From positions 62,001-126,000 of the forward strand of contig NZ_JAAILA010000015.1 of the NCBI RefSeq assembly GCF_010974825.1: DNA of 64,000 nucleotides, read 5' to 3'. The DNA comes from Aeromonas rivipollensis (GTDB lineage: Bacteria; Pseudomonadota; Gammaproteobacteria; Enterobacterales; Aeromonadaceae). Below the pieces are notes generated by a model that was given only the letters and a program-made list of their open reading frames with translations, was not told where the DNA came from and did no database searches. The translations under genes were made by a program, and so were the position numbers. Below, piece by piece: positions 1 to 53,664 of the stretch (positions are counted from its first letter, which is position 1; each line of letters begins with the position of its first letter).

Positions 1-141
1 TGGCTGGTGGAGAAGGAGGCCATAGAGCAGGCCATCGCCAGCTGTGACGGCAACATCCCCAAGGCTGCGGCGCTGCTGGAGATCAGCCCCTCGACCATTT
101 ATCGCAAGAAGCAGGGCTGGGAGGAGGCGAGCCTGGCTTAG
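1..141 (+). CDS. Fis-type HTH C-terminus of a sigma-54-dependent (NtrC-like) regulator, partial
   Basis: Frame 1 is open from the window edge to TAG at 139-141 and gives 46 residues. They include [20 protein letters not shown], the helix-turn-helix typical of the Fis-like DNA-binding end of NtrC/LuxO-family enhancer-binding proteins. The receiver and AAA+ domains would lie upstream, outside the window. The recognition helix ([10 protein letters not shown]) is complete and the gene ends normally. The exact family member cannot be told from this fragment; LuxO-like is only a possibility. Decayed copies of this 3' end follow directly. Confidence 0.8.
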
Positions 142-168
142 GGCTTAGGGCTTAGGGCTTAGGGCTTA
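141..168. repeat. Four tandem GGGCTTA heptamers
   Basis: Four perfect head-to-tail heptamers start at the last base of the stop codon. A fifth, imperfect unit (TGGCTTA) is formed by the final codons of the gene, so the array seems to have grown from the gene's own end. It separates the gene from the first decayed copy of its 3' end. Confidence 0.9.
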
Positions 169-170
169 AG

Positions 171-249
171 GCCGCGAGGTTGGAGATCAACCCTTCACTC
201 CCTCATTTACCGCAAGAAGCAGGGTTGGGAAGAGGCGAGCCTGGCTTGA
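171..249 (+). pseudogene. Second, diverged copy of the Fis-HTH gene 3' end
   Basis: This stretch aligns with about 74-141 of the intact gene. It keeps GAGATC, then CGCAAGAAGCAGGG, TGGGA and GAGGCGAGCCTGGCTT. Most differences in the last 40 bases are synonymous (TAT/TAC, GGC/GGT, GAG/GAA, stop TAG/TGA). A 4-base gain near 194-203 breaks the frame. It has no start or upstream domains, so it is a fragment rather than a gene. Confidence 0.8.
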
Positions 250-260
250 GGCCTAAGTAG

Positions 261-327
261 GGCTGGGCTCAGCCCTTCCTTTATCTATCGCAATAGACAG
301 AGTCGTGAAGGGGTCTGGCCTGAGTGA
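261..327 (+). pseudogene. Third, more decayed copy of the Fis-HTH gene 3' end
   Basis: From 268 the sequence reads LSPSFIYRNRQSR in frame, against [13 protein letters not shown] in the intact gene, and ends in TGA at 325-327. The similarity is clearer at protein than at base level, which suggests an older or more distant copy. It ends about 40 bp before the convergent TPR gene. Confidence 0.6.
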
Positions 328-366
328 CGGGCGGCGTGAGCCACCCGCTCTTTTTGTGGCGCGCCG

Positions 367-1236
367 TCAGAGCTTGGCGAGGCGCTTGAGCCTGGCCAGC
401 CGCTCCGCCTCGTTGGCCTGCAGCCAGCCATCCCGCGAGAGCAGGAACCAGGCGCGGGCGAAGTATTCGGGGGCGGCCGGATCGTCCAGCATAAGGCCGT
501 TCTCCCCCAGCTCCTCGAACAGGTAGCCATCTTCCGGCGCGCTGGCCTCGGCCATGTCGGCCTTCAGCTGGCTCAGCTCGGCCATCGCCTGTTCGTGCAA
601 TCCCTGCGCCCGGCTCAGCCGTGCCAGGCTCCAGCGGGCGATAAAGGCCTTGTTCTGATTGCTGTGTTGCTGGTGCCAGGCCAGGCACTTCTGCTGGCAG
701 GCCCTGGCCTCCTCAAAGCGACCCAGCTCAAACAGGGTCCAGCCCTGATTGTTGTAGAGGCTGGGCAGCCAGCCGCGCACCTTATCGTCGGCACTGCGCT
801 CGGCCAGGGTCATCGCCAGTTGATGCCAGCGGCTCTGCTCCTCCAGCGGGGCGGCGATGGCCACCATGTGGGCCGCGTCTATGGCGAGCCCTGTCTCCCC
901 CAGCTTGAGCCCGAGTTGCCACCCCTGCTCGAACAGCGTCCTGGCGCTTGCCTTGTCGCCGGCCGAGTTGAACGTCCGCCCCCGTTCCAGCAAGGTGCGC
1001 AGCCGTGCTCGCGGGGTGGCGTCGGTGAGGCGGGGCTCTATCTCGTCGAGCAGTTGGTGCGCCTGTGCAAACTGGCGCTGCAGGGAGTGGGTGCGGGCCA
1101 GTTGGGTCAGCAGCTCAAGCTCGAGTTGCAGGTCGGCGGCGGCGCGCGCCGCAGGAAGAAGCGCGTGAAAACGCAGGGCAGTGGCGGCGGGATCCTGATA
1201 ATCCCACTGCGCCATGAAATCGGGCGGATTGTCCAT
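367..1236 (-). CDS. TPR-repeat protein of unknown function
   Basis: The product is 289 residues, helical throughout, with Ala/Leu-rich pairs of helices characteristic of tetratricopeptide repeats (for example the stretch with NNQGWTLFELGRFEEARAC near residues 162-180). There is no signal peptide or membrane segment, so it is probably a cytoplasmic scaffold. It converges on the regulator fragment at 1-141 and is separated from the next minus-strand gene by a strong hairpin. The binding partner cannot be predicted. Confidence 0.75.
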   Translation of the reverse strand: MDNPPDFMAQWDYQDPAATALRFHALLPAARAAADLQLELELLTQLARTHSLQRQFAQAHQLLDEIEPRLTDATPRARLRTLLERGRTFNSAGDKASARTLFEQGWQLGLKLGETGLAIDAAHMVAIAAPLEEQSRWHQLAMTLAERSADDKVRGWLPSLYNNQGWTLFELGRFEEARACQQKCLAWHQQHSNQNKAFIARWSLARLSRAQGLHEQAMAELSQLKADMAEASAPEDGYLFEELGENGLMLDDPAAPEYFARAWFLLSRDGWLQANEAERLARLKRLAKL

Positions 1237-1294
1237 CTGGCCTCCTGGCTGGTTACCCTCTCACCAAGATGCCTATCGCCCATTGTTTGTACAA

Positions 1295-1318
1295 GGGGCG
1301 CCCGTCACAGGGCGCCCC
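1295..1318. terminator. GC-rich hairpin, weak or bidirectional terminator
   Basis: The 9-bp arms GGGGCGCCC and GGGCGCCCC enclose a 6-nt loop, between the 111-residue membrane protein gene and the TPR gene (both minus strand). No long T-run follows on either strand, so termination would be weak. Confidence 0.5.
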
Positions 1319-1349
1319 TCAGGTCATGAAAAAGCCCGTGCAATCGAAA

Positions 1350-1685
1350 TCAATAGACCATGGCCAGGCTCATCAGCATCAGGCCCAGGGCGGCGAAGGC
1401 TCCTTCCTTGATGGCCAGGCGCGGCACCAGCGCCTTGGGCAGCGCCGGGAACAGGCAGAGCGCGAAGCCAAGCCCCGGCATCAGCCAGTGAAAGCCGGGA
1501 CTGCGCAGGCTAGGGTCTGCCGCCCCGTTGATGATGATCAGCAGGATGAAGAGGGTGAAGGCGGGCAGGATAAACCAGCGGGCGTTGCCGGCGGCGACCG
1601 CTCGCAGGGGCGAGATGCGATAGAGCACCAGGGTCACGATAAAGAGGACAAGGGGGGCCAGCAGATAGAGGGGGGCCGGATTCAT
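1350..1685 (-). CDS. Small multi-pass membrane protein, unknown function
   Basis: The 111-residue product has about four hydrophobic segments: near residues 5-21, 37-51, 65-82 and 93-110. It starts MNPAPLYLLAPLVLF. I do not recognise the family. It sits between the DUF2956 gene and the TPR gene on the same strand, with more than 100 bp on either side, so it is probably transcribed on its own. Confidence 0.65.
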   Translation of the reverse strand: MNPAPLYLLAPLVLFIVTLVLYRISPLRAVAAGNARWFILPAFTLFILLIIINGAADPSLRSPGFHWLMPGLGFALCLFPALPKALVPRLAIKEGAFAALGLMLMSLAMVY

Positions 1686-1802
1686 GATGGGGGTCTCCAG
1701 ACAACGGGGGGAAGAGTGTAAGCAGCCGGGGCTAGGGATGACCAGCGCACCGGCCCCGGGCTGTGAGGCCGATCCCAGGGCAAAGGTTTGCCAGGCAAGG
1801 GA

Positions 1803-2144
1803 TCAGCGCAGCCAGATCCAGGCACAGCCAAATGCCAGCCAGCTCAGCACCAGCAATACCCATGGCAACGGGTGCTGGCGGCTGATCTCGACAAGCTCTA
1901 TCTCCTGGGCCTCTTCCTCCTGCTCGCCCTGCTGTGGCTGCTTCGTCCTGGCTTGCTGCTTCTTCTGGCGGCTCGCCTCCCGGGCCCGCGCCTTCATCTG
2001 TTTCTTGTATTCGTCTATGCCCTTCTGGATCCCCTGGGCGATCAGCTGGGTCTGCTCCTTGGTCTGCCCCGGTTTCTGGTTGGCGCGGGCTACCTTCATC
2101 GCCTCCTGCTGGGTCTCGGGGGAAATCTTGTCGTACTTTGCCAT
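1803..2144 (-). CDS. DUF2956 family protein
   Basis: The 113-residue protein starts MAKYDKISPETQQEAMKVA and has the KPGQTKEQTQLIAQGIQKGI block that I associate with DUF2956, a family of Vibrio, Shewanella and Aeromonas. It has a highly charged Lys/Arg/Gln helix (about residues 45-85) and one C-terminal membrane segment (about 93-111) ending in Arg. This is the layout of a tail-anchored inner-membrane protein with a cytoplasmic coiled coil. Function unknown. Confidence 0.8.
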   Translation of the reverse strand: MAKYDKISPETQQEAMKVARANQKPGQTKEQTQLIAQGIQKGIDEYKKQMKARAREASRQKKQQARTKQPQQGEQEEEAQEIELVEISRQHPLPWVLLVLSWLAFGCAWIWLR

Positions 2145-2398
2145 TCACGGCTCTCCTTGGCATCGATTGGCGGGAAGTATGCCATAACTGTTTCCGGCAG
2201 GCTGCCATCCCTGCGGGGGAAATCAGGCGGCAGGAGATTGGCTAGTGATGGAAATATGAGGAGACAGGTTGCGCTGGTGATCACATTTGGCGGAATTTGT
2301 GAGTCACCGATGAAAAAGCGTCACATGTTGTTTGTTATATTAGCGCCCGACCTAATGGCTTGGGTCGTCCAATAACAAAATAACAAGGTGATATGGAA

Positions 2399-4069
2399 AT
2401 GAATTATAAATTTGTCAAAGGAACTGTCGCGCTGGCCGTGCTCGCCGCGCTGAGTGGCTGTAATACCTCACAAAATGAAAGTGTCGCTCCCTGTACCGAA
2501 AATGTCTGCAAGCTGACCATTTTGCACACCAATGATACCCACGGTCGTTTCTGGCACAACGACAAGGGTGAATATGGCATGGCAGCCCAGAAGACCCTGG
2601 TCGAACGCCTGCGTGGGGAGGCCAAGGCGGCGGGCAGCGAGGTGCTGGTGCTCTCCGGTGGCGACGTGAACACAGGGGTGCCGGAGTCGGATCTGCAGGA
2701 TGCGGAGCCGGACTTCATGGCCATGAACAGCATCCGCTACGATGCCATGGCGGTGGGCAACCACGAGTTCGACAACCCCCTGAGCATCCTCGAGAAACAG
2801 CGTGAGTGGGCCAAGTTCCCCATGATCTCCGCCAACATCTACGACAAGGCCAGCGGCAAGCGCTACTTCGACCCCTACAAGGTGTTCAAGCTGGAGAACG
2901 GCCTCAAGGTCGCCGTGCTGGGCCTGACCACGGAAGACACCGCCCAGCTGGTGGATCCCAACAACGTCCAGACCCTGGAGTTCCGCGATCCGACCACGGA
3001 AGCGGCCAAGCTCGGCAAGCAGATCCGCGATAGCAAAGAGGCGAACCTGGTCCTGGCCATCACCCACATGGGTCACTACGAGAATGGCCAGCACGGCAGC
3101 AATGCCCCGGGGGATGTGGAGATGGCGCGCGCGCTGCCGGCCGGCACCCTGGACGCCATCATAGGTGGTCACTCCCAGAACCCGGTCTGCATGGAGCCGG
3201 GCACGGCGGACAAGTACGCCGACTTCAAGCCGGGTGACGATTGCTTGCCGGATCAGCAGAATGGCACCTGGATCATGCAGGCCCACGAGTGGGGCAAGTA
3301 TGTGGGCCGCGCCCAGTTTGACTACCAGAATGGCAAGCTGACCCTGACCCAGTACGATCTCATCCCGGTCAATCTGAAAGACGCTGGCGGTGCCTTCATT
3401 CAGGAAGAGATCACCAAGGATCCAGATCTCTACAACACCCTGCTCACCTATCAGGAGAAGGGTCAGCAGGAGCTGGGCGTAGTGATAGGTTCCACCGACG
3501 GCGTGCTGGACGGCGAGCGTGCCAACGTGCGCAACAAGCAGACCAACCTGGGTCGCCTCATCACCACGGCCACCGCCGAGAAGCTGAGCACCGACTTTGG
3601 CATCGTCAACTCAGGCGGCGTGCGTGCCTCCATCGCGGCTGGCGACATCAGCTATCGCGACGTGCTGACAGTGCATCCGTTCGGCAACACGGTCAACAAG
3701 GCGACCATGAGCGGCGGCGAGCTGGCAACCTATCTGGGCCTGGTGGCGACCAAGACAGTCAACACCGGCGGCTATGCCCAGTTTGGTGGCATCAACATGG
3801 CGGTGGACTGCCAGGCCAAGAGCGTGACCATCACCAGCGTGGGCGGCAAGGCCTTCGATCCTGCGGCCAGCTACAGCTTCTCCATCCCGAGCTTCAGCGC
3901 GGCCGGTGGCGACGGCTATCCGAAGATCAACACCATCAACGCCGGTCTGGTGGATGCCGGGGTGTTGAAGGATTATATCGCGGCGAAGAAGACCATACAG
4001 GTGGCCGATTATCAGCCGGCCGGCGAGGTCAGCTATGTTAATTCCGCCTCGACTGATGGCTGCAAATAA
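2399..4069 (+). CDS. nutA: 5'-nucleotidase/UDP-sugar hydrolase family lipoprotein (UshA/NutA type)
   Basis: This surface or periplasmic metallophosphoesterase hydrolyses extracellular nucleotides for purine and phosphate salvage. The N-terminus is a lipoprotein signal with lipobox LSGC. Metal-binding motifs appear in order: NDTHGR, SGGDV, GNHEFD, THMGH and GGHSQNP. The C-terminal nucleotide-binding domain carries NSGGVRASIAAGDISYRDV. About 556 residues, close to E. coli UshA (550). ATG 2399 is preferred over ATG 2393 because AAGGTG at 2385-2390 is 8 nt from the former and only 2 nt from the latter. The gene stands alone and ends in a strong terminator. Confidence 0.9.
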   Translation: MNYKFVKGTVALAVLAALSGCNTSQNESVAPCTENVCKLTILHTNDTHGRFWHNDKGEYGMAAQKTLVERLRGEAKAAGSEVLVLSGGDVNTGVPESDLQDAEPDFMAMNSIRYDAMAVGNHEFDNPLSILEKQREWAKFPMISANIYDKASGKRYFDPYKVFKLENGLKVAVLGLTTEDTAQLVDPNNVQTLEFRDPTTEAAKLGKQIRDSKEANLVLAITHMGHYENGQHGSNAPGDVEMARALPAGTLDAIIGGHSQNPVCMEPGTADKYADFKPGDDCLPDQQNGTWIMQAHEWGKYVGRAQFDYQNGKLTLTQYDLIPVNLKDAGGAFIQEEITKDPDLYNTLLTYQEKGQQELGVVIGSTDGVLDGERANVRNKQTNLGRLITTATAEKLSTDFGIVNSGGVRASIAAGDISYRDVLTVHPFGNTVNKATMSGGELATYLGLVATKTVNTGGYAQFGGINMAVDCQAKSVTITSVGGKAFDPAASYSFSIPSFSAAGGDGYPKINTINAGLVDAGVLKDYIAAKKTIQVADYQPAGEVSYVNSASTDGCK

Positions 4070-4096
4070 TAGAGCGGCCTTGGGCCAATAACAAAA

Positions 4097-4126
4097 GAGA
4101 GGCAGCCATGGCTGCCTCTCTTTTTT
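4097..4126 (+). terminator. Rho-independent terminator of nutA
   Basis: A perfect palindrome (arms GAGAGGCAGCCA and its complement, 4097-4120) is followed by six T residues. Confidence 0.95.
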
Positions 4127-4222
4127 ATTTTCAAGGTCATCAGCATGGGCTGAAGGCGATTATTCTCGGCCCCTCACAGGGAGGGGGGAATATTCAATGG
4201 CCAGCTGTAATGAGTGTGATGG

Positions 4223-4250
4223 CAATAAAAAGGCGACCCTGAGGTCGCCT
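4223..4250 (-). terminator. Rho-independent terminator of the Tim44-like gene
   Basis: On the minus strand the arms AGGCGACC and GGTCGCCT flank a short loop and are followed by TTTTTATT. It lies 27 bp past the stop of the minus-strand gene. Confidence 0.9.
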
Positions 4251-4276
4251 TTATCATGCTTGCCGGACGGGCGTGC

Positions 4277-5128: not shown

Positions 5129-5304
5129 TTTGACTCTTTCACTCTCATGTAGGTGGGGGCATGCTCTGCTTGTGCAAGCTCAGCGAGGCGCATGGCAGGC
5201 TGCCGGTCCCTTTTTGTGTTGCAGCTTGCGGGTATGATTAACATGTCTGGCATGAATTATTCATGAACAGATTGCCCCTCCCGGGGGCGCCAAGGAGGAT
5301 GCCC

Positions 5305-5548: not shown

Positions 5549-6949
5549 ATGTGTATGGCAGAGCAAGTGACGGCGAAAAAAGACGCCAAGACACAACAGC
5601 TGAAAGTTCCCCCCCACTCTTTTGAGGCCGAGCAGTCCGTACTGGGCGGCCTGATGCTGGATAACGAGGCCTGGGATCGGGTGGCCGAGCGGGTAATCGA
5701 CAAGGATTTCTACAGCCGTCCCCACCGCCTGATCTTCCAGGCCATGACCCGCCTCTCCAACGCGGGCAACCCCATCGATCTCATCACCTTGCAGGAGGAG
5801 CTGGAACGCTCCGAGCAGTTGGAAGAGTCCGGTGGCTTCGCCTATCTGGTGGAGATCGCCAAGAACACCCCGAGCGCCGCCAACATCAATGCCTACGCCG
5901 AGATAGTGCGTGAGCGGGCCGTGGTTCGGGAGATGATCTCGGTCGCCAACGAGATAGTCGAAGCGGGTTACGAGCCCCAGGGCCGTACCTCAGGCGATCT
6001 GCTGGATCTTGCCGAGAGCAAGGTGTTCCAGATTGCCGAGCAGCGCTCCAGCGCCAACGAGGGCCCGCAGCCCCTGAAGCTCATTCTGGAGCAGACGGTC
6101 GACAAGATTGAGGAGCTGTTCAAGACCCCTCACAACGGGGTGACCGGCGTCTCCAGCGGTTATGGCGATCTCGACAAGATGACCGCCGGTCTGCAACGCT
6201 CGGACCTCATCATAGTCGCCGCCCGTCCCTCCATGGGCAAGACCACCTTTGCCATGAACCTGTGCGAGCACGCGGCCCTCACCGCCGACAAGCCGGTGCT
6301 CATCTTCTCTCTGGAGATGCCCTCCGAGCAGATCATCATGCGTATGCTCGCCTCGGTCGGGCGCATCGACCAGACCAAGGTGCGGACCGGCCAGCTCGAC
6401 GACGAAGATTGGGCGCGCCTCTCCTCCACCATGGGGCTGCTGCTCGAGAAGGGCAAGATGTACATAGATGACGCCTCCGGCCTGACCCCGACCGACGTGC
6501 GCTCCCGTGCCCGTCGCATCGCCCGCGAGCATGGTGGTCTCTCCATGATCATGATCGACTACCTGCAGCTGATGCGGGTGCCGGCGCTGTCCGACAACCG
6601 AACCCTGGAGATCGGTGAAATCTCCCGCTCCCTCAAGGCCTTGGCGAAGGAGCTGCAATGCCCTGTGGTGGCGCTCTCCCAGCTGAACCGAAGCCTGGAG
6701 CAGCGGGCCGACAAGCGGCCGGTCAACTCGGACCTTCGTGAATCAGGCTCCATCGAGCAGGACGCGGATTTGATCATGTTCATCTACCGCGACGAGGTGT
6801 ATCACGACGACAGTCCCGACAAGGGGATTGCCGAGATCATCATCGGCAAACAGCGTAACGGCCCCATAGGCCGGGTGCGGCTCACCTTCCAGGGTCAGTT
6901 CTCCCGGTTCGACAACTATGCCGGCCCGGCGTTTGATGATGACTATTGA
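5549..6949 (+). CDS. dnaB: Replicative DNA helicase DnaB
   Basis: Hexameric 5'-3' helicase of the replication fork; it binds DnaG primase through its N-terminal domain. The 466-residue product has the N-terminal domain (HSFEAEQSVLGGLM), a linker, and a RecA-like motor with Walker A ARPSMGKT, Walker B MIMIDYLQL, and the DnaB signatures LSQLNRSLEQR and SDLRESGSIEQDAD. The start may be ATG 5549 or ATG 5555; neither has a good ribosome site. A diverged copy of the last 60 bases lies 139 bp downstream. alr follows on the same strand, as in many gammaproteobacteria. Confidence 0.97.
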   Translation: MCMAEQVTAKKDAKTQQLKVPPHSFEAEQSVLGGLMLDNEAWDRVAERVIDKDFYSRPHRLIFQAMTRLSNAGNPIDLITLQEELERSEQLEESGGFAYLVEIAKNTPSAANINAYAEIVRERAVVREMISVANEIVEAGYEPQGRTSGDLLDLAESKVFQIAEQRSSANEGPQPLKLILEQTVDKIEELFKTPHNGVTGVSSGYGDLDKMTAGLQRSDLIIVAARPSMGKTTFAMNLCEHAALTADKPVLIFSLEMPSEQIIMRMLASVGRIDQTKVRTGQLDDEDWARLSSTMGLLLEKGKMYIDDASGLTPTDVRSRARRIAREHGGLSMIMIDYLQLMRVPALSDNRTLEIGEISRSLKALAKELQCPVVALSQLNRSLEQRADKRPVNSDLRESGSIEQDADLIMFIYRDEVYHDDSPDKGIAEIIIGKQRNGPIGRVRLTFQGQFSRFDNYAGPAFDDDY

Positions 6950-6990
6950 TGTAAACCCAAGGTGAGGGCTGCGTAGCCATCACTACAACT

Positions 6991-7040
6991 GCCCTGACCG
7001 ATAGCCAACTCAGATAGTGGCCGACCGTCAGGGCTTGTTT
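6991..7040 (+). terminator. Imperfect hairpin after dnaB, possible terminator
   Basis: The arms GCCCTGAC (6991-6998) and GTCAGGGC (7027-7034) are followed by TTGTTTT. The T-run is already part of the duplicated dnaB end, so the hairpin spans the junction of the duplication. Confidence 0.45.
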
Positions 7041-7089
7041 TCCCGGTTCGACAATTCTGCCGGTCCGGCCTTAGACGATGACTATCAAG
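7029..7089 (+). pseudogene. Diverged copy of the dnaB 3' end
   Basis: Aligned with 6890-6950 at a constant offset of 139 with no gaps, about 80% of bases match. Read in the dnaB frame it gives FSRFDNSAGPALDDDY against FSRFDNYAGPAFDDDY. The changes are mainly third-position (AAC/AAT, GGC/GGT, GCG/GCC, GAT/GAC). The stop codon is lost (CAA for TGA). This is a fragment with no start or upstream domain. Confidence 0.9.
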
Positions 7090-7149
7090 GGATGACACCA
7101 CTCGGTGCCTGGCGCGCGTGCGCCATCATGCCCTCGTAAGGGAAAACAG

Positions 7150-8223
7150 ATGAAAGCGGCTATTGCCCAAATCGATACCTCGGCCCTGCGCCACAACCTC
7201 GCCGTGGTCAAGCGCCACGCCCCTTCCTGCAAGATTATCGCCGTGGTCAAGGCCAACGCCTATGGCCATGGCCTGCTGCCGGTGGCCCGCACCCTGGTGG
7301 ATGCGGACGCCTATGCGGTGGCCCGCATCGAGGAGGCGCTGATGCTGCGCTCCTGCGCCGTGGTCAAACCCATAGTACTGCTGGAAGGCTTCTTCTCGAG
7401 CGCCGATCTGCCGGTGCTGGCGGCCAACAACCTGCAGACCGCGGTGCACACCTGGGAGCAGCTCGAGGCCTTGGAGCAGGCCGAGCTGCCGGCTCCCGTG
7501 GTGGCCTGGCTCAAGCTCGACACCGGCATGCACCGGCTCGGGGTGCGGGCCGAGGAGATGCCCGCCTTTATCGAGCGGCTGGCCCGCTGCAAGAACGTGG
7601 TACAGCCGTTCAACATCATGACCCACTTCAGCCGCTCCGATGAGCTGGAGCAATCCACCACCCGCGAGCAGATCGATCTCTTCAGCCGCCTGACCGCACC
7701 GCTCAAAGGCGAGCGCGCCATGGCGAACTCGGCGGGCATCCTGGCCTGGCCGGACTCCCACTGCGACTGGGTGCGCCCCGGCGTCATCCTCTACGGCGTC
7801 TCCCCCTTCCCGAACACTGTGGCGGCGGATTACGACCTCAAGCCGGTGATGACCCTCAAGACCCAGCTCATCGCGGTGCGGGATCACAAGGCGGGGGAGC
7901 CTGTGGGTTACGGCGCCAACTGGGTGTCGACCCGGGATACCCGGCTCGGCGTCATCGCCATCGGTTACGGCGATGGCTATCCCCGCATGGCGCCCAACGG
8001 CACCTCTGTGCTGGTCAATGGCCGCATAGTGCCGCTGGTGGGCCGGGTCTCCATGGACATGACGACTGTGGATCTGGGCCCTGGTGCCACCGACAAGGCC
8101 GGCGACGAGGCCGTGCTCTGGGGCGAGGGCCTGCCGGTGGAGCGGGTCGCCGAGGAGATAGGCACCATTCCTTATGAGCTGATCACCAAGCTCACTTCTC
8201 GGGTGTTTATGGAGTACGTTTAA
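7150..8223 (+). CDS. alr: Alanine racemase
   Basis: PLP enzyme interconverting L- and D-alanine for peptidoglycan synthesis. The 357-residue product has the PLP-lysine motif [11 protein letters not shown] near the N-terminus. The second active-site region is [20 protein letters not shown], and [11 protein letters not shown] lies near the end of the C-terminal beta domain. ATG 7150 is chosen because AAGGG sits 7-8 nt upstream and the protein then begins like other Alr proteins ([17 protein letters not shown]). The dnaB-alr order is conserved in relatives. Confidence 0.95.
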
Positions 8224-41760: not shown

Positions 41761-42372
41761 ATGGAAATGACGAGTTGGCTGGCGCTCGCCGCCATTTGCG
41801 TGATGGGGGCCATCAGTCCGGGGCCCAGCCTGGCGCTGATCATCCGCAATACGGTGCAGGGGGGGCAGGGCCACGGGGTGGCCACGGCGCTCGGCCACGG
41901 CCTGGGGGTGGGGATCTACGCCCTCATCACGGCGCTGGGTCTCTCTGTGCTGATCACCCAGACCCCGCTGCTGTTTGATCTGATCCGCTACGGCGGTGCC
42001 GCCTTCCTCGCCTGGCTCGGGATCAAGGCGCTCTTGGCCAAGCCCGCCAGTGGCGACTCTGCCGACGAGACGGTGCACGGCGCCCGTGGCCGTCAGGGGG
42101 CGTTCGAGGGCTTCATGGTGGCCTTCTTGAACCCCCAGCTCGCCATCTTCTTCATCGCCCTGTTCAGCCAGTTCGTGCACGCCGATACCGGCTGGCGCGA
42201 GGGGAGCATCATGATGCTGACCGCCGGCGGCATAGACGCGCTCTGGTACGTGCTGGTGGCCCTGGTGCTCTCCCGCGGGCCCGTGCTGGCCTGGCTCAAG
42301 GCCAAGTCCTTCGTGATCGACAAGATAAGCGGCCTGGTGTTGCTGGGATTGGCGCTCAAGGTGGTGATCTGA
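41761..42372 (+). CDS. LysE/RhtB-family amino-acid exporter
   Basis: Inner-membrane exporter with about six hydrophobic helices in 203 residues. Family motifs include the N-terminal GAISPGPSLALIIRNTVQGG and central FLNPQLAIFFIALF. ATG 41761 has AAGGA at 6 nt; TTG 41743 is less likely. The substrate (threonine, homoserine, lysine or another) cannot be told. Its last 100 bases are repeated twice more directly downstream. Confidence 0.88.
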   Translation: MEMTSWLALAAICVMGAISPGPSLALIIRNTVQGGQGHGVATALGHGLGVGIYALITALGLSVLITQTPLLFDLIRYGGAAFLAWLGIKALLAKPASGDSADETVHGARGRQGAFEGFMVAFLNPQLAIFFIALFSQFVHADTGWREGSIMMLTAGGIDALWYVLVALVLSRGPVLAWLKAKSFVIDKISGLVLLGLALKVVI

Positions 42373-42592
42373 GCTCTCCCGCGGTCTGTCCATGGCTCGC
42401 CTGGCTCAAGGCCAAGTCCTTCGTGATCGACAAGATAAGCGGCCTGGTGTTGCTGGGATTGGCGCTCAAGGTGGTGATCTGAGCTCTCCCGCGGTCTGTT
42501 CATGGCTGGCCTGGCTCAAGGCCAAGTCCTTCGTGATCGACAAGATAAGCGGCCTGGTGCTGCTGGGATTGGCGCTCAAAGTGGTGATCTAG
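42373..42592 (+). repeat. Two further tandem copies of the LysE-type gene 3' end
   Basis: Two 110-bp units (42373-42482 and 42483-42592) repeat the gene's final segment. About 84 bases from GCCTGGCTCAAGG to the stop are identical or nearly so. The first part of each unit (GGTCTGT-CATGGCT) differs from the gene (GGGCCCGTGCTG) and is 4-5 nt longer, so the copies change frame. Copy 3 has CTGCTG for TTGCTG, AAA for AAG and TAG for TGA. No start codon with a ribosome site is present. Confidence 0.95.
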
Positions 42593-42625: not shown

Positions 42626-42666
42626 CTCCCTTCTCCCCTTGCGGGAGAAGGGTTGGGGATGAGGGG
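42626..42666. repeat. REP-like dispersed palindrome, copy 2 (inverted)
   Basis: The reverse complement of 8226-8266 with one mismatch in 41 bases. It includes the hairpin of CTTCTCCC and GGGAGAAG arms. It lies between the LysE repeats and rlhA; the rest of 42667-42831 shows nothing recognisable. Confidence 0.85.
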
Positions 42667-42831: not shown

Positions 42832-44679
42832 ATGCAGGATCACACCCAGACTAACCGCCTCGAGCTGCTGGCTCCGGCCAAGAACCTCGCCTACGGCATC
42901 GAAGCCATCAACCACGGTGCCGATGCCGTCTACATGGGCGGCCCCGCCTTCGGTGCCCGCAGTGCGGCAGGCAACTCCCTCGAAGATATCGAAGCGCTGG
43001 CGCGCCACGCCCACCGCTTCGGCGCCCAGGTGTTCGTCGCCTTCAACACCCTGCTGCACGACCAGGAGCTGGAGCAGGCCCGGCGCCTGACCCACCAGAT
43101 CTACGAGGCCGGGGCCGATGCGCTGATCGTGCAGGATATGGGGCTGCTGGCGCTCGACCTCCCCCCCATCGCGTTGCACGCCAGCACCCAGACCGACAAC
43201 CGCACGCCGGAAAAGGTGAAGTTTCTGCAGGACGTGGGTTTCTCCCAGGTGGTGCTGGCCCGGGAATTGTCCCTTGAGCAGATCCGTGCCATCAGCGCCC
43301 AGACCCAGGTGCAGCTGGAATTCTTTATCCACGGTGCCCTGTGCGTCTCCTACAGCGGCCAGTGCAACATCAGCCACGCCCGCACCGGGCGCAGCGCGAA
43401 CCGTGGCGAGTGTGCCCAGCTCTGCCGGCTGCCCTGCTCCCTACAGACCCCAGGGGGTGAGGTGCTGGTGGAGAACAGCCACCTGTTGTCCCTCAAGGAC
43501 ATGGATCAGAGCACGAACCTGGAGGCGCTGATCGCCGCGGGCATCCGCTCCTTCAAGATTGAGGGGCGCCTCAAGGGGGTGGACTACGTCAAGAATGTCA
43601 CCGCCTGGTATCGCCAGAAGCTGGACGCCATCCTGGAGCGCCGCCCCGATCTGGTGGCGGCGTCGGCCGGTCGCTGCAGCTACGGTTTCACACCGGATCC
43701 CAAAAAGAGCTTCAACCGGGGAAGCACCGACTACTTCCTCCATGGCCGCCAGCCGGGGATAGACTCCACCAGGAGCCCGAAATATGTGGGTGAACCCCTG
43801 GGCCGCGTCAGCAAGGTGACCCGCGATGGCATAGAGATAGACGGCAAACCCGTGAGCCTCAACAACGGCGATGGCCTCGGCTTCTTCAAGCCGGGGGGCG
43901 AACTGGTGGGGATGCGCCTCAACAAGGTGGAAGGTAAGCAGTTACTGCTGTCGGAGCGCATGCCTGGCCTCAAGGTGGGCACCGAGATCTTCCGCAACCA
44001 CGATCAGGCATTCAGCAAGTTGCTGGAGAAGCCGAGCGCGGAGCGCCGCATCCGGGTCGATATGCGGCTCTCTGAATGCGACCAAGGCGTCCGGCTCGTG
44101 CTCACCGACGAGCAGGGCATCGGCGCCTCCGTCACGCTCCCCTGCGACAAGCAGCCGGCCGACAACCCGGCGCGGGCGCTGCAACAGGCGCGGGACCAGC
44201 TTGGCAAACTGGGTAACACCCTGTTTGTGGCACGCCAGATTGAGTTGGTATTCACTTCTCCCCTGTTCATTGCCGCATCCATGCTCAACGGCCTGCGCCG
44301 GGACGGCATAGCCGCCCTGGAGGCGGCCCGTCTGGCCGCCTACCGGCGACCCGAGCGGCGCATCCCTCTGCGTGACGCCACCTATCCCCAGCACCGGCTC
44401 TCCTACCTCGGCAACGTGCTGAACAGTGCGGCCGAGCAGTTCTTCCGCGAGCACGGGGTGGGGCGCATAGCCCCCGCCTATGAGGCGAACAAGGAGCAGG
44501 GGGAGGTGGTGCTGATGATCACCAAACACTGTATTCGCTACAGCCAGCACCTCTGCCCGAAAGAGGTGCCCGGCCTCAAGGCCGAACCGCTGGAATTGAA
44601 GATGGGTAAAGACAGTTTCCGCCTGCGCTTTGACTGCAAGCGCTGCGAGATGCAGGTGATGGGGAGTTTGAAAAAGTAA
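42832..44679 (+). CDS. rlhA: Peptidase U32-family 23S rRNA C2501 hydroxylase RlhA
   Basis: Closely resembles E. coli RlhA (YdcP), which makes 5-hydroxycytidine at 23S rRNA position 2501. The 615-residue protein has the U32 core (ELLAPAKNLAYGIEAINHGA, GGPAFGARSA, HASTQTDNRTPEKVKFL, ARELSLEQIRAI). Four conserved Cys regions follow: GALCVSYSGQCNISH, CAQLCRLPC, KHCIRYSQHLCP and CKRCEM. It is about 40 residues shorter at the C-terminus than the E. coli protein. Monocistronic. Confidence 0.88.
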   Translation: MQDHTQTNRLELLAPAKNLAYGIEAINHGADAVYMGGPAFGARSAAGNSLEDIEALARHAHRFGAQVFVAFNTLLHDQELEQARRLTHQIYEAGADALIVQDMGLLALDLPPIALHASTQTDNRTPEKVKFLQDVGFSQVVLARELSLEQIRAISAQTQVQLEFFIHGALCVSYSGQCNISHARTGRSANRGECAQLCRLPCSLQTPGGEVLVENSHLLSLKDMDQSTNLEALIAAGIRSFKIEGRLKGVDYVKNVTAWYRQKLDAILERRPDLVAASAGRCSYGFTPDPKKSFNRGSTDYFLHGRQPGIDSTRSPKYVGEPLGRVSKVTRDGIEIDGKPVSLNNGDGLGFFKPGGELVGMRLNKVEGKQLLLSERMPGLKVGTEIFRNHDQAFSKLLEKPSAERRIRVDMRLSECDQGVRLVLTDEQGIGASVTLPCDKQPADNPARALQQARDQLGKLGNTLFVARQIELVFTSPLFIAASMLNGLRRDGIAALEAARLAAYRRPERRIPLRDATYPQHRLSYLGNVLNSAAEQFFREHGVGRIAPAYEANKEQGEVVLMITKHCIRYSQHLCPKEVPGLKAEPLELKMGKDSFRLRFDCKRCEMQVMGSLKK

Positions 44680-44689
44680 TCCGTTTGCG

Positions 44690-44822
44690 GCCTCTCACCC
44701 TAGCTCCCTTACTAGGGGAGAGGAGATCAATCTGTATAGTGCCATCCATTACCAGCGGTGGTATCTACTCCCTTTTCCCACTTACTTTTGAAAAATGGGG
44801 GAGGGGCTGGGGATGAGGGGGC
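44690..44822. repeat. Degenerate REP-like elements after rlhA
   Basis: Two partial relatives of the 41-bp REP-like unit: CTCCC-ttacta-GGGGAG near 44710, and GGGGGAGGGGCTGGGGATGA near 44799. They look like a split or decayed pair around about 60 bp of other DNA. The rest of 44823-44969 shows no gene. Confidence 0.5.
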
Positions 44823-44969
44823 GTAAATGTGCAGTGTTCCAGGGAAGAGTGTTTTCGACTGAACTGTCTGAAAATTCTCTTTCCGAACGTCTGATTACGC
44901 CTCGCTTATCAAACCAGCGGCTCTGAGTTTATGAAATCCAATATTTACCAAGCGAGATTAAATTTGTTA

Positions 44970-45021
44970 TTACATATCCAAATTGGCTTCAATGGTCCAG
45001 TCATTATCTATCCTGTGCGGT
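44970..45021 (-). pseudogene. Gene-end fragment A (left flank of low-GC ORF)
   Basis: Read on the minus strand it gives TPHRIDNDWTIEANLDM followed by TAATAA. There is no start or longer homologous frame upstream. It matches fragment B (45662-45720) at base and protein level, so the two are direct repeats of a lost gene's 3' end. The parent family is not recognised. Confidence 0.6.
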
Positions 45022-45148
45022 GTAGGACCTCGTGGCTGCATTCTCTGCGAGTGATCCTGTTTGGCGATAAAGTCAGATGAAAAATGTGGCCATTTCTATA
45101 TCCAAAGGGGGGGGTAGCCAGAATCCTTACCTGTAGCGGAGGTATGCA

Positions 45149-45604
45149 ATGATAGTACTGTTTATTCTTGTGTTGGCTATCGTCACTCCGGCCGTCATCC
45201 TGCTGGCTACCGTCAAGCTCACAGAGGCAGAGTACGCACCTCAAAGTCAGTCCATCACTTCATCGATTTTCACAACCGTAAGATACTGGGTTGCTATCGG
45301 TTATACGGGATTTCTGTTCACAGGGGCACTTGGAGGCATCTTGGTTGCGACGACGAGTGAATACGGAGGTTACAGTATCCCTGGTTGCAATTTCTACGAT
45401 GCGCTTCTCTACGGTGCTCGTTGCCAAGGTTTTAATGGTGCGTGGGTAGCTTCTGCTGTTCTTAACTTCGTGCTATTGATTGTGCAGTTGTCGGCAGCCT
45501 CGCTATCCTCCCCATTCTTTTTCCCTATAGCCCTCCTGCTTTGGACACCCCCCATCTACATCATCTATTTATGCGTTAGACGATTGAGGTGTCGGAGGGA
45601 GTAG
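45149..45604 (+). CDS. Hypothetical multi-pass membrane protein in a low-GC patch
   Basis: The 151 residues have hydrophobic segments at about 1-23, 45-68, 98-117 and 120-142, with a basic tail (VRRLRCRRE). It starts MIVLFILVLAIVTPAVILLA after GGAGG at 45138-45142. GC content and codon use differ from neighbouring genes. Related gene-end fragments lie on both sides, suggesting an acquired cassette. I do not recognise the family. Confidence 0.6.
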   Translation: MIVLFILVLAIVTPAVILLATVKLTEAEYAPQSQSITSSIFTTVRYWVAIGYTGFLFTGALGGILVATTSEYGGYSIPGCNFYDALLYGARCQGFNGAWVASAVLNFVLLIVQLSAASLSSPFFFPIALLLWTPPIYIIYLCVRRLRCRRE

Positions 45605-45661
45605 TTTCGTAGATTGTTTAAATTTATAAAGACTAAGGTTTACTAAACGATATCAACGTTT

Positions 45662-45720
45662 TTATTCCATATCAAAATTAATTTCGATGGCCCAGTCACT
45701 CTTTATCTATCTTGTGCGAT
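45662..45720 (-). pseudogene. Gene-end fragment B (right flank of low-GC ORF)
   Basis: On the minus strand SDWAIEINFDME then TAA, preceded (after a one-base gain) by HKIDK. It aligns with HRIDNDWTIEANLDM of fragment A. Differences include third-position changes (GAC/GAC kept, TTG/TTT, GCC/ATT). Confidence 0.6.
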
Positions 45721-45745
45721 GGATGCAGACATAACAGTGTTGGGA

Positions 45746-46051
45746 TTAAGGGGGAAGAGTAATTGCGCCAACGCCAATCGATGGATTGTAAAATATAGCC
45801 AGCAGTCTGTCGGTGCGGGTAATGCATTGAGGGCGGTGCATTTTCCATATTGCCTCTAGAACAAGGACTGTAGGGGCTACCGTTAACGGTAAGGTCAAAA
45901 GTTTTAGGTCTCCATCACCACTTACAAAATTCAAAGTTAGAATAGCGAAGCCTGTTCGGATGTTCGAAAACCTGCCCTGATTAATCGCAAGCCAGCACTT
46001 ATCTAATAACCAATTCCTTCCCGCCTTAGTAACACCAGCTTGATAGGTATG
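45746..46051 (-). pseudogene. Open frame without a clear start, possible gene remnant
   Basis: The minus-strand frame is open for about 101 codons from the upstream stop at 46052. It reads through GRNWLLDKCWLAINQGRFSN and later ILTLNFVSGDGDLKLLTLPL to ITLPP and a stop. The only ATG (45934) would remove a third of it. The composition looks protein-like with one hydrophobic stretch. It may be the remainder of a truncated gene in this acquired patch. Family unknown. Confidence 0.35.
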
Positions 46052-46205
46052 TTATGGCGCTTGGTTCGATGGCAGTATCAGGGAGGCACTATGGGGAGAC
46101 TAGCTTGTCCGGGCATCCCAGCCTACAGCCGGCATGGCGGGGGGGCGACGGATGCTGATTGCCCCTGCTGCGGTGATGCCTCTTGTTTTGACAAATGGAG
46201 TTACG

Positions 46206-49554: not shown

Positions 49555-49706
49555 GACATGACTCGGCTGAGGGTGTGCATGACCCAGAGACTAAGCGGGT
49601 GCGAGGGGAGTGACTAGCCAAAAACGGACAGGGATAGCAAAAAAAGTCGGGCGCTTGGGGAGGGGATGAGAGGGCGCAGCGCTGGGCCGCGCCCCGGGGA
49701 AGGCGC

Positions 49707-51185
49707 CTATTTCAGGTAGCGTTGTTCCAGGTGCTTGCGCAGCCACTGCGGATTGAGCGCCTCGCCGGTCGCGCGGCGAATGAGCTCGTCCGTGCCGTGC
49801 AGGCTGCCCTGGGACCAGATGTGGCGGCCGAGCCAGTCAAAGATCTCCGGCAAGCGGCCCGCTTCGATGAGCTGGCCCATGTCGCCGAGCTCTCGCTCGA
49901 GCGCGAAGCGCAGCTGCGCCGCGTACATGGCGCCGAGCGTGTAACTCGGGAAGTAGCCAAACGAGCCGTCCGTCCAGTGAATGTCCTGCATGCAGCCATT
50001 CTGGTAGTTGCCCTTGGTGGACAGCCCGAGCCACTGCTGCATCTTCGCGTCCCACTGCGCCGGTATGTCAGCGACCTCGATGCGCCCCTCGATGAGATCG
50101 CGCTCCAGCTCGTAGCGCAGTATGACGTGTGCCGGGTAGGTCACCTCGTCCGCATCGACGCGGATAAAGCCGGGCTCGACCCTGTTGTACAGCTTCTCGA
50201 GGTTCGCCGGTGCGAGTGCGGCCTGCTCGCCGAAGTGCGCGCGGATGCGCGGCGCTAGCAGCGAAAGGAACGCGGGTGCATGGCCTAGCTGCATCTCGCA
50301 GAACAGGCTCTGGCTCTCGTGAATGCCCATGGAGCGCGCCTCGGCGACCGGCTGACCGAGCAGATGGCGCGGCAAGCCCTGCTCGTAGCGTGCGTGGCCC
50401 GTCTCGTGGACTATGCCCATCAGGCTGGAGACGAATTCGTCCTCGTTGTAGCGCGTGGTGATGCGCACGTCCGTCGGCACGCCGCCGCAGAACGGGTGGC
50501 TGCTCACATCGAGCCGGCCGTGGGCAAAATCAAAGCCGAGCAGCCCCATCACCTCCTGGCCGAGCGCCTGCTGGGTCGCGACCGGGAAGGGACCCTGCGG
50601 GATCAAAATGGTGTCGCGTTTTTGCTGCTCGCTCACCTGCTGGATGAGGCCGGGCAGCCAGCTCGTCAGATCGCCGAAGATCTGATCCAGTTTCTCGCTC
50701 GTCATGCCGGGCTCGTACAGCGCCAGCATGGCGTCATAGGGGCGCACCCCGAGCGCCTCGGCGCGCAAGCTAGCCACCTCCCGCGAAAGGCGCACCACCT
50801 CCTCGAGGTTAGGGGCAAAGCCTGCCCAGTCGTTCTCCTTGCGCTGGCGGCGCCAGGCGTGCTCGCACTTGCTGCCGGCCAAGGAGAGCGCCTCCACCAG
50901 CTCGCTTGGCAGCAGGCTCGCATCCTGCCAGTGGCGCTTGATCTCCGCGAGGTTGGCGCGCTGGATCGCGTCCAGCGGTTCGCTCTCGGCCTTGGCAATC
51001 CAGTCGCCCAGCTCGGGGGCGGTGCGCTTGCCGTGGATCAGCACGCCGAGCTCCGCCATCGCCTCGGCGCGGGCCTTGTTGCCCCCCTCCGGCATCATGG
51101 CGGCCTGATCCCAGCCGCAGATGGCGGACAGGTGGGAGAGGCGGTGCAGTTGTTGCTGATGTTGTTCGAGTTTCTGGTATGACAT
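49707..51185 (-). CDS. M32-family metallocarboxypeptidase (Taq type)
   Basis: Zinc carboxypeptidase of 492 residues. The metal motif is HETGHARYEQGL (HExxH) with the later Glu in GIHESQSLFCE, and the family signature stretches GGVPTDVRITTRYNEDEF and VEPGFIRVDADEVTYPAHVILRYE. ATG 51185 (MSYQKLEQHQ) is chosen, as the upstream extension is Cys/Arg-rich and unlike the family. Cytoplasmic, monocistronic. Confidence 0.92.
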   Translation of the reverse strand: MSYQKLEQHQQQLHRLSHLSAICGWDQAAMMPEGGNKARAEAMAELGVLIHGKRTAPELGDWIAKAESEPLDAIQRANLAEIKRHWQDASLLPSELVEALSLAGSKCEHAWRRQRKENDWAGFAPNLEEVVRLSREVASLRAEALGVRPYDAMLALYEPGMTSEKLDQIFGDLTSWLPGLIQQVSEQQKRDTILIPQGPFPVATQQALGQEVMGLLGFDFAHGRLDVSSHPFCGGVPTDVRITTRYNEDEFVSSLMGIVHETGHARYEQGLPRHLLGQPVAEARSMGIHESQSLFCEMQLGHAPAFLSLLAPRIRAHFGEQAALAPANLEKLYNRVEPGFIRVDADEVTYPAHVILRYELERDLIEGRIEVADIPAQWDAKMQQWLGLSTKGNYQNGCMQDIHWTDGSFGYFPSYTLGAMYAAQLRFALERELGDMGQLIEAGRLPEIFDWLGRHIWSQGSLHGTDELIRRATGEALNPQWLRKHLEQRYLK

Positions 51186-51291
51186 GGGATTGTCCTTGTT
51201 ATCGTCCCTGATGGTATGCACCCCGTACCTGGCATGATCGGGGCAGCCCGATGCTAGCACTGTGCCGCGGGCTAGGGCCACCCTCAGGCGG

Positions 51292-51873
51292 TCAGCCGAG
51301 GCGCTTCTGGTGACGTTCGCGGTTCTCGGCCTTCTTGCGCTCGCTCTTTCGCAGCAGCACATAGAGGGCGCCGCTGCCGCCGTGGCGACGCTCGGCGCTG
51401 TGGATGGCCATCACCGCAGGCAGTTGCGGCAGCCAGGCGCTGACATGGCTCTTGAGCAGGGCGCGCGGGGTGCTGCGCTCCCCCTTGCCGTGCAGGATCA
51501 GCAGGCAGCGGATGTCCCGCACCTCGCACTCCCCAATGAACTGCACCAGGGCGGTTCGCGCCTCCTTGATGGTCTTGTGGTGCAGGTCGAGGGAGCCTTG
51601 CAGCTCGTACTTGCCGAGCCGCAGCTTCTTGTAGACCCCCTCCTGCACGCCGTCGCGCTTGAAGCCGACGATGTCGTGGGGATCCAGCATGGGGACAGCC
51701 TCCATGCTGAGGTGATCCAGGGTGAGCCGTTCGGCGGTGGCGGCCTCCCGGCGCGCGAGTTGCGCCTCGGTCGGCAGGCTGTTGCCCGCGCTAGGGGTTA
51801 TGTGGTCGCTGCGCAGCGGCCGCACGTCGGCCACTTCCTGCAGGAACAGTGAGAGTTCGTCGTTATGAGACAC
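51292..51873 (-). CDS. smrA: Smr-domain protein SmrA
   Basis: The 193-residue product has an N-terminal helical part and a C-terminal Smr domain with the LDLHHKTIKEAR motif, LLILHGKGERSTPR and HGGSGALYVLL. Smr domains are nicking endonucleases or RNA-binding modules; E. coli SmrA (YdaL) has the same length range. The tail is basic (RKSERKKAENRERHQKRLG). Confidence 0.85.
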   Translation of the reverse strand: MSHNDELSLFLQEVADVRPLRSDHITPSAGNSLPTEAQLARREAATAERLTLDHLSMEAVPMLDPHDIVGFKRDGVQEGVYKKLRLGKYELQGSLDLHHKTIKEARTALVQFIGECEVRDIRCLLILHGKGERSTPRALLKSHVSAWLPQLPAVMAIHSAERRHGGSGALYVLLRKSERKKAENRERHQKRLG

Positions 51874-51982
51874 GGCAGGCTCCCCGCATGAGAATGAGGG
51901 GGCATTATAGCGGGCCTGGCCTGTGCTTAGAATGGCGGGGGCGCGGCGGGCTCAGGGGCCCGCACCTGGTGTCGCCGTCGGG

Positions 51983-52132
51983 TTATTGACCCTCTTTCGG
52001 CGGCTCGGCGTGCATCACCTTGTAGATGAAATAGACCGCATAGGCGCTGATCAGCAGGAAGGTGCCGATAATCACCAGCATGGACATCAGCCCCACGCTG
52101 TTGCCGAACATCAGGTTCATCCAGAATTCCAT
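51983..52132 (-). CDS. DUF3149 small membrane protein
   Basis: A 49-residue protein starting MEFWMNLMFGNSVGLMSMLV, with one hydrophobic helix (about 12-38) and a short cytoplasmic tail (KVMHAEPPKEGQ). It matches the size and layout of DUF3149. The ribosome site (GGAGTG) lies upstream. It is transcribed as a single gene with unknown role. Confidence 0.75.
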   Translation of the reverse strand: MEFWMNLMFGNSVGLMSMLVIIGTFLLISAYAVYFIYKVMHAEPPKEGQ

Positions 52133-52298
52133 CTCGTTCACTCCTGTCATTGCGCGATGACAGGCATGATAGATACCTCTTTGGGTGGGATGAGATGATC
52201 TCGATCAAGTCCCTTCGTGGTTATTTAATCGGCAACCCATTCTGTGAGCGGCCTCGCACCCGGCGCCCCGCTTGGCGGCAGGGCACCGCTCTGCGGAC

Positions 52299-53180
52299 TT
52301 AGTCTGCCGCTGCGGGTTCGGTGAGCGACGTGATGCGCCAGCCCTGCTGCTCCAGCAGGGCGAGCAGGCCCTGTTCGCCGTAAAGGTGCAGAGCCCCTAC
52401 CACGATAAAGCTCTCGTTTGGCAGGCCGGGCCACTTCTTGACCCAGTTGCGGTTGCGTTCCGCCAGCAGGGTCTGCTCCAGCCAGGCTTGCAGCTTGGGC
52501 GGCGCCATCTCCTCTTTGAGCAGATTGATCAGGGTGGCCTGATCCCCGTTCTGCCAGGCCGCCATGACCTCGGCGAACCCCTTCTCGAGCTCAGGCAGCT
52601 CATCCAGGGTGCTCTCCAGCATCAGGGTCTGGTTGTCACCGACGCTCGCCAGATAGCCGAGCTGCTCCAGCAGGGTCTCCAGCCCGACTATGGGTTTGCC
52701 GCCGTCGTTTGCCCGCTTGGCGAAGTGCTGATCCACCCCGAATTCACCGCGATAGCCGGTACGCTCCAGCGCCGCCTGGGTCAGGGTGATGGCGGCAAAC
52801 CAGGGGCGCAGCGGCGCCAGCATGGCCTCGGTCAGGCCGTTCTGGCCGGCGGCGATCAGGGTGCGTCGGTAGAGATCCATGGGCAGGTGATCCTTGAGGG
52901 TCTTGCCATCCACCAGCCGGGTGATGGCCCCCATCTCCTGCCACTGCGCCTGGCTGATGTGGGTCATGTCGACCTCCATCACCAGGGCGCGACTCTGCTG
53001 CCAGGCGCGCTCGACGGGTTCGGGCAGGGGGTAGAGCGAGGGCTTGCCCGCATGGATGGACCCCAGCAACCAGTGCTGCTCATTGCCCTTGCTGATGCGA
53101 TAGAAGGCCGGATCGGCAAAGGCGTTCAGCGGCAGCAGCAGCCAAAGCAGTAAGGAAAGCAGCGTGCGATGGAATCTCAT
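52299..53180 (-). CDS. TraB/GumN family protein
   Basis: The 293-residue product has a signal peptide (MRFHRTLLSLLLWLLLPLNAFA) and the GumN/TraB motifs: WLLGSIHAGKPSLYPLP at the start and FIVVGALHLYGEQGLLALL near the end (the GALH motif). Such proteins are probably metal-dependent proteases or chaperone-like factors of the envelope. Monocistronic, divergent from the DUF1904 gene. Confidence 0.88.
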   Translation of the reverse strand: MRFHRTLLSLLLWLLLPLNAFADPAFYRISKGNEQHWLLGSIHAGKPSLYPLPEPVERAWQQSRALVMEVDMTHISQAQWQEMGAITRLVDGKTLKDHLPMDLYRRTLIAAGQNGLTEAMLAPLRPWFAAITLTQAALERTGYRGEFGVDQHFAKRANDGGKPIVGLETLLEQLGYLASVGDNQTLMLESTLDELPELEKGFAEVMAAWQNGDQATLINLLKEEMAPPKLQAWLEQTLLAERNRNWVKKWPGLPNESFIVVGALHLYGEQGLLALLEQQGWRITSLTEPAAAD

Positions 53181-53250
53181 GAGGCACCTTATGTGAGCGG
53201 GATGAGTGCTCTATGATAAGTCCTCATTTGTCACAGCCAAGAGGTTTCCC

Positions 53251-53583
53251 ATGCCCCACCTTCGCTTTCGGGCAGTTTCTGTCGACACCCTGCAGCAGAT
53301 AAGCACGCCCCTGCTGGCGGATCTCTGCGCCCTGACTGGCGGCAAGCCGGAGTTCGTCACCCTGGAGTGCGTCGACAGCATCCAGGTGAGGAACGGCGAG
53401 CGAGAGGCCGGTTTCCCCTTCGTGGAGCTGGTCTGGTTCGAGCGCCCGCAGGAGGTGCAGGATGCCGCCGCTGCCCTCATCACCCGCCACCTCAAGGCGG
53501 TGTTGGGGGAGCAGACCTATGTGGTGGTGCAGGTGTTGCCCATCGTCAAGAGCGCCTACTACAGCAACGGCCAGCACTATTGA
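53251..53583 (+). CDS. DUF1904 family (tautomerase/MIF-like fold) protein
   Basis: The 110-residue product starts MPHLRFRAVSVDTLQQIS with the N-terminal Pro typical of the tautomerase superfamily, and has FVTLECVDSI, GFPFVELVWFERPQEVQD and a C-terminus SAYYSNGQHY. ATG 53251 has AAGAGG 6 nt upstream and exposes Pro1; the longer frame from 53206 would bury it. Its 3' end is duplicated 81 bp downstream. Confidence 0.85.
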   Translation: MPHLRFRAVSVDTLQQISTPLLADLCALTGGKPEFVTLECVDSIQVRNGEREAGFPFVELVWFERPQEVQDAAAALITRHLKAVLGEQTYVVVQVLPIVKSAYYSNGQHY

Positions 53584-53616
53584 GCGTGAGTGGAGAGCCT
53601 TGCTGAAACAGTTGCT

Positions 53617-53664
53617 GTACAGACGGTCAATTCCAGGTACGACAGCAAGGGCCAGCACTATTGA
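53617..53664 (+). pseudogene. Diverged copy of the DUF1904 3' end
   Basis: Aligned with 53545-53583 at an offset of 81, 31 of 39 bases match. Read in frame it gives VNSRYDSKGQHY and stop, against VKSAYYSNGQHY in the gene. No upstream domain or start. It lies between the DUF1904 gene and the convergent SDR gene. Confidence 0.75.

Follow-up and report, generated by a model that had tools for sequence, protein, structure and literature searches.

We analyzed a window of 64,000 bp from Aeromonas rivipollensis (genome G000, contig C5) and found that dnaB, a LysE-type exporter gene, a DUF1904 gene and a Fis-type gene were each followed by copies of their own 3' ends, as detected by local alignment and by a gene-by-gene scan. 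We propose that such duplicated ends are gene-border relics left by allele displacement and by short tandem duplication, and that the relic behind dnaB has been kept for the neighboring gene, alr. We regard this explanation as evenly poised between right and wrong, because only one event at dnaB is firm. Thirty-seven genomes of the genus were searched for the four loci, at which the genes were intact and allelic between species. A first-pass annotation of the window had reported duplicated gene ends and interpreted them; the observation was partly confirmed, being real in the main, and the interpretation was partly supported.

Layered gene ends and a conserved core at the dnaB locus

The dnaB locus of the window contains the following features.

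5555..6949, plus strand: dnaB, intact replicative helicase gene (gene call; protein matches in 58/59 genomes of the order; annotated as dnaB in E. coli, there too adjacent to alr)
6950..7028, plus strand: spacer of type A, from the dnaB stop to the relic (the species' second genome has another type)
7029..7085, plus strand: dnaB 3'-end relic (47/57 identical to the end of the intact gene)
7037..7070, plus strand: 34-bp core of the relic (33/34 positions invariant in the 35 of 37 genomes having the core)
7150..8223, plus strand: alr, alanine racemase (gene call; name from synteny with E. coli)

The relic was detected in 35 of the 37 genomes with an exact 19-base seed and in 32 with the alignment threshold, and its left border was the same in the 35 genomes. 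No such copy was found behind dnaB in E. coli or in the genomes read outside the genus (28/28; 57 searched).

Six of the 35 relic-bearing genomes carried an extra, inner dnaB end. In all six of these layered genomes, the spacer of the inner end resembled the spacer that lies directly behind dnaB in single-layer species, with matches of 33/34 to G036, 33/35 to G007, 49/55 and 51/56 to G004, 82/95 to G011, and 69/73 to G001. The inner spacer barely resembled the outer spacer of its own genome, with scores of 10–16, G035 alone reaching 28 (20/24). The outer spacer of G021 and G025 matched type A of G001 (45/57) and their inner spacer was of the G004 type; a non-homologous joint connects the type-A spacer to the interior of a dnaB end that belongs to another type. 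Spacer types of two other species within one locus were found at dnaB only, firmly in this one event. Judging from these alignments, the intact dnaB of G021 and G025 is confidently predicted to be the later arrival, with the older end keeping the spacer of another species. The outer-spacer match was weak in G035 (21/27), and no such match was found in the other three layered genomes. Overlap of dnaB alleles is thus firm for the single event of G021 and G025; the third genome suggests it, and the data from the other three are compatible with it. The distance from dnaB to the core was 31–95 bp in single-layer genomes and 183–353 bp in layered ones.

The core itself was almost invariant. Its sole variable column was column 21, with two letters, and no 34-bp stretch within the final 450 bp of dnaB or the initial 200 bp of alr had more than 29/34 columns invariant. 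Identity at third codon positions was 100% in the core of the relic, which occurred in 2 versions, and 71% in the same 34 bp of the intact gene, which occurred in 22 versions. The flanks of the core were poorly conserved, with an ungapped similarity of 46% over the 20 bp before it and of 58% over a 20-bp stretch a little way behind it. The non-coding distance from the core to the alr start was nearly fixed, at 102–115 bp in 35/35 genomes. A neutral relic would drift, and coding constraint would permit synonymous change as in dnaB; therefore, these values point to a constraint on the nucleotides themselves. The position of the core suggests that it may be a regulatory element of alr.

Nineteen columns of the core served as the search seed, and a changed relic could escape a seed search; only two genomes lacked the seed, and both were read directly, neither of them having a relic. 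In a search with three mismatches allowed, the core was exact in 36/37 genomes, the 36th being G029, in which it formed dnaB's own end. Four genomes also had a three-mismatch match to the core at the intact dnaB's own end. The core was found in 28 genome contig records, all from Aeromonas.

Recurrence of duplicated gene ends

To quantify recurrence, we searched the 400 bp downstream of each gene for matches to its last 150 bp, and the 400 bp upstream for matches to its first 150 bp, at a score of at least 36. The genes came from our own gene finder, the stretches were sampled, and the counts exclude masked N. Five genomes were surveyed: three Aeromonas species (G023, G010 and G034), E. coli MG1655, and G057, another genome of the order. 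The values below are, in order, 3'-end copies, 5'-end copies, 3' ends against windows 400–2000 bp downstream, swapped 3' controls, swapped 5' controls and mid-gene comparisons.

G023: 7/314; 4/296; 0/1188; 2/6262; 3/5903; 1/82
G010: 8/342; 3/314; 4/1302; 1/6821; 3/6262; 1/96
G034: 2/348; 1/328; 7/1311; 1/6935; 6/6538; 0/95
E. coli MG1655: 1/350; 1/344; 3/1376; 1/6979; 1/6859; 0/102
G057: 1/314; 0/301; 1/1187; 0/6255; 2/5997; 0/100

The 3' excess of G023 and G010 was clear (15/656 vs. 4/2490 further downstream, p = 9e-8). The recurrence claimed in the first-pass annotation was well above chance in two of the three Aeromonas species sampled, and also above E. coli. E. coli and G057 together gave 2/664 three-prime copies, and the single 3' copy of E. 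coli MG1655 lay in a gene annotated as an inactive transposase. The copy in G057, which belongs to another genus of the order, stood behind a gene at L370:15165-16463 (minus strand) whose C-terminus looks like that of an enolase. The 5' excess in G023 and G010 was smaller (7/610, p = 0.002), and the excess of 3' over 5' copies in these two genomes was not significant (p = 0.14). Specificity for 3' ends was not supported, as 5' ends were duplicated too (8/938, vs. 17/1004 at 3' ends, in the three species; Fisher p = 0.11 on counts close to these).

Within the window, the same scan (score of at least 36) gave matches for 3/49 genes at the 3' end and 0/48 at the 5' end, with swapped controls of 1/959 (3') and 2/939 (5'); the 49 scanned genes do not include the Fis-type gene, which sits at the edge of the window. 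In stretches of five genomes, 14/234 three-prime and 0/225 five-prime ends had a match, counts that are neither independent nor unbiased as these stretches were chosen as window matches. The mismatches between copies and genes had been described as mainly synonymous. This was true on average, with third codon positions being favored (17 copies from three species; 74/137 mismatches, chi-square p = 1.6e-6); the LysE copies were nearly identical.

The other three duplicated loci of the window are listed below.

41761..42372, plus strand: LysE-type exporter gene (Pfam LysE; gene call, Pfam)
42373..42482, plus strand: LysE 3'-end copy 2, tandem (103/106)
42483..42592, plus strand: LysE 3'-end copy 3, tandem, ending in TAG
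1..141, plus strand: end of a Fis-family helix-turn-helix gene (Pfam HTH_8)
181..247, plus strand: Fis-type 3'-end copy (56/63, with a 4-base insertion)
53251..53583, plus strand: DUF1904 gene (gene call, Pfam)
53638..53664, plus strand: copy of the last 27 bp of the DUF1904 gene (25/27, score 44)

The extra 3' ends reported earlier for four genes were thus recovered, the Fis copy being that at 181–247, except for a third Fis copy, which scored 23, no higher than chance scores. The copies were patchy in the genus (LysE 10/37 and Fis 10/36, both at a score of at least 36; DUF1904 5/36). In G030 and G004, the LysE copy plus the following sequence was a close match to the unduplicated gene end of other species, for example G016 and G025, and like LysE spacers occurred with different flanks among genomes. 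The patchy presence and these like spacers with different flanks suggest spread by ordinary recombination, repeated loss, or both. The first-pass annotation had named, as a finding that would refute it, fragments closer to the adjacent gene than to any other lineage. This was the case for LysE copy 2, for which its own gene was the best of 37 (83/83), whereas the own gene ranked second of 37 for LysE copy 3, fourth of 36 for the Fis copy and sixth of 37, with ties, for the dnaB relic. Separately, a short dispersed repeat of ~41 bp lies at 42626–42666 and has many near-identical matches in genomes of the genus.

Duplicated ends were also read at loci outside these four. The dapF gene of G023 (L183:15213-16043, minus strand) and of G000 had relics on both sides, a 5' one upstream and a 3' one downstream; the 5' relic was present in 10/30 genomes read (script threshold), with the stop of its relic open reading frame (ORF) ranging from −18 to +11, and the 3' rows were read for about half of the genomes. 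The nrdR copy was present in 13/30 genomes read; wherever a comparison was made, the sequence behind it was the flank seen in single-copy genomes. Several 5' relics make up upstream ORFs whose stop lies at the true start codon (L177:16384; L179, L186, L202 (minus strand); L211:17173). Among eight five-prime relics, six had an ORF stop within −3 to +11 of the real start; in the control, 113/706 ATGs had a stop within −6 to +12, a range chosen after reading the sequences. Such ORF ends look like translational coupling that would let the real gene be expressed.

One further repeat in the window had been presented as a fifth case, with two fragments of an absent gene's end.

44667..46205, no strand assigned: 1.5-kb segment with ~80-bp repeats and an ORF inside (reduced to 137 bp in the species' second genome)

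That account was not borne out: what we found were repeats of ~80 bp (44944–45022 and 45639–45721, score 66) inside a variable segment, and no gene was identified. One plus-strand frame of each repeat shared a peptide-like stretch, a possible coding trace; nothing tied the repeats to a known gene end, no family search having been made on them. The 151-aa ORF in the segment had no Pfam match at E 0.01. A 141-bp piece was 100% identical in one other species (G002, L373) and was not found in the other 35 genomes; because this identity was confined to G002, the segment looks like a recent transfer.

Origin of the relics

In allele displacement as we propose it, a related gene that brings its own spacer would recombine into the resident gene via the common coding sequence, and the far end of the newcomer would be joined without homology inside the resident gene; natural transformation may have been the route. 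The last 30–150 bp of the resident gene and its flank would remain behind; at 5' ends, the arrangement would be mirrored. A working gene would result solely from joints that add sequence, and hence only these would be observed. By a second route, short tandem duplications would arise across the gene border, as in the near-identical LysE copies. The relics would later spread between species by ordinary recombination, and the dnaB relic would be kept because it holds a sequence needed by the next gene, alr. Most relics are probably neutral.

The flanks bear directly on this proposal. Where they could be compared, the fragment was followed by the native flank of single-copy relatives; therefore, the fragments would be resident sequence or products of tandem duplication, and not foreign pieces joined in, as the first-pass annotation had assumed. 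One of its two candidate mechanisms, homology-facilitated illegitimate recombination, fared well at dnaB, where ends of different lineages are stacked via a non-homologous joint, but not as the cause of all copies. At loci other than dnaB the data fit displacement, and a tandem duplication ending at or near the stop codon is possible as well. The idea that many relics start right behind the stop codon as decayed copies, as they seemed to by eye, was rejected, the spacers being no more alike than chance when compared with 867 other gene ends. Alignment of the spacer to the gene was no better than to other genes, with p < 0.05 in 1/13 sampled copies and in 0/11 rows at named loci, two rows being repeats.

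Several observations weigh against displacement and against retention of the dnaB relic for alr. Tandem duplication, too, would leave a native flank behind a relic, and the two routes can be told apart by the dnaB layers alone, firmly in one event. At most loci, no single-copy genome carrying the spacer in question was found. At dapF, the beginning of the spacer resembled the flank (9/13 by eye). The flank was repeated after the copy in 4/17 three-prime copies and between copies in two more (L180:3904, L194). G034 showed no excess, its 3' copies (2/348) being no commoner than matches further downstream (7/1311), and mid-gene matches amounted to 2/273 in the three Aeromonas species, both with lags divisible by three, as protein repeats give. 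Both genomes without the dnaB relic fell inside relic-bearing groups (tree with midpoint root only), which weakens the case that G029 shows the ancestral state; this genome may instead be a revertant. The sigma-70 promoter search gave 0 matches in 6850–7200, and no Rfam match was found in the dnaB–alr region.

The strongest alternative is that all copies are tandem duplications, produced by slippage or unequal exchange at the border, and that their differences stem from later mutation and gene exchange between species. We give it an appreciable but minority probability. A flank that recurs after each copy marks a tandem duplication, and such repeats occurred in at least 6/17 three-prime and 4/8 five-prime copies, which also contradicts a single cause for all copies as first envisaged. 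The LysE copies of the window, at 103/106, form a repeated unit, G015 carries a repeated dnaB unit, and the native flank would also lie behind the copy after a duplication that ended at the stop codon. However, 11/17 three-prime copies had no visible flank repeat, even at 95% and 97% identity (L169, L180:6408), and G021 and G025 carry spacers of different lineages behind the gene and behind the inner copy, as expected from displacement.

A further reading, that selection generally retains the relics as terminators, leaders or coupled upstream ORFs however they arose, is improbable. The invariance of the dnaB core and the stops of the five-prime relic ORFs, set against the post hoc control range, speak for such a role, whereas the patchy distribution of most 3' relics and the existence of remnants of ~20 bp speak against it. 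Site-specific integration and loss of mobile elements carrying a replacement gene end, with the relics as attL/attR sites, the other mechanism offered in the first-pass annotation, would explain the constant left border of the dnaB relic but is very improbable, as the dnaB spacers of 31–353 bp leave no room for an integrase gene, the exact 25 specified core bases occurred in no viral contig, the exact core occurred once per genome and many unrelated genes are affected.

Known systems and implications

Homology-facilitated illegitimate recombination is known in Acinetobacter, Pseudomonas stutzeri and Streptococcus pneumoniae. As in that process, one end of the incoming DNA would be joined via homology and the other without it, and resident sequence remains. 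Unlike the laboratory cases, the scars described here are natural, lie at the ends of core genes with overlaps of 30–150 bp and spacers mostly below 100 bp, and are known from sequence alone. Strings of displaced 3' ends also stand behind the intact gene in the orphan 3' regions of Rhs and contact-dependent inhibition (CDI) loci, in which toxin tips are under selection for variety, whereas the Aeromonas relics lie at core genes.

Passages on type VI secretion system (T6SS) effector-immunity modules of Vibrio cholerae describe a new module arriving upstream, with the older 3' end shifted downstream, so that layers stack; homology-facilitated illegitimate recombination is proposed there as the mechanism of displacement (PMC5361080). 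Orphan Rhs/CDI regions are mentioned in them as well. As those passages describe them, the modules are variable toxin-immunity loci, whereas the Aeromonas relics concern ordinary housekeeping genes of which only the ends remain. In passages on small variable genome segments, short differences between strains are ascribed to homology-assisted illegitimate recombination (PMC2884548); a duplicated gene end beside an intact gene, the feature seen in Aeromonas, is not described in them. Judged by titles and the starts of abstracts, no description of duplicated core-gene ends was recognized among the open-access papers listed. Within the reach of these searches, two findings are new, namely that the relics recur at core genes and that one of them turned into an invariant element; the type of joint itself is known.

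It is possible, and on balance rather doubtful, that the dnaB end once held, within its coding sequence, an element needed by alr, and that the stacking of a new end upstream left the old end as a non-coding relic, preserved with hardly a base changed across the genus, the coding end being freed to change. Scars of overlapping alleles might then, more widely, keep supplying new intergenic elements as well as coupled upstream ORFs, and would document gene replacement in readable layers.

If the proposed origin is correct, the intergenic regions of recombining bacteria would hold a layered record of replaced gene versions and their replacers. The relics would provide a natural count of a type of recombination that, from the sources consulted in part, has been studied mainly in laboratory tests. 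Displaced pieces could also serve as regulatory DNA, and the dnaB–alr region would be a concrete element of that sort.

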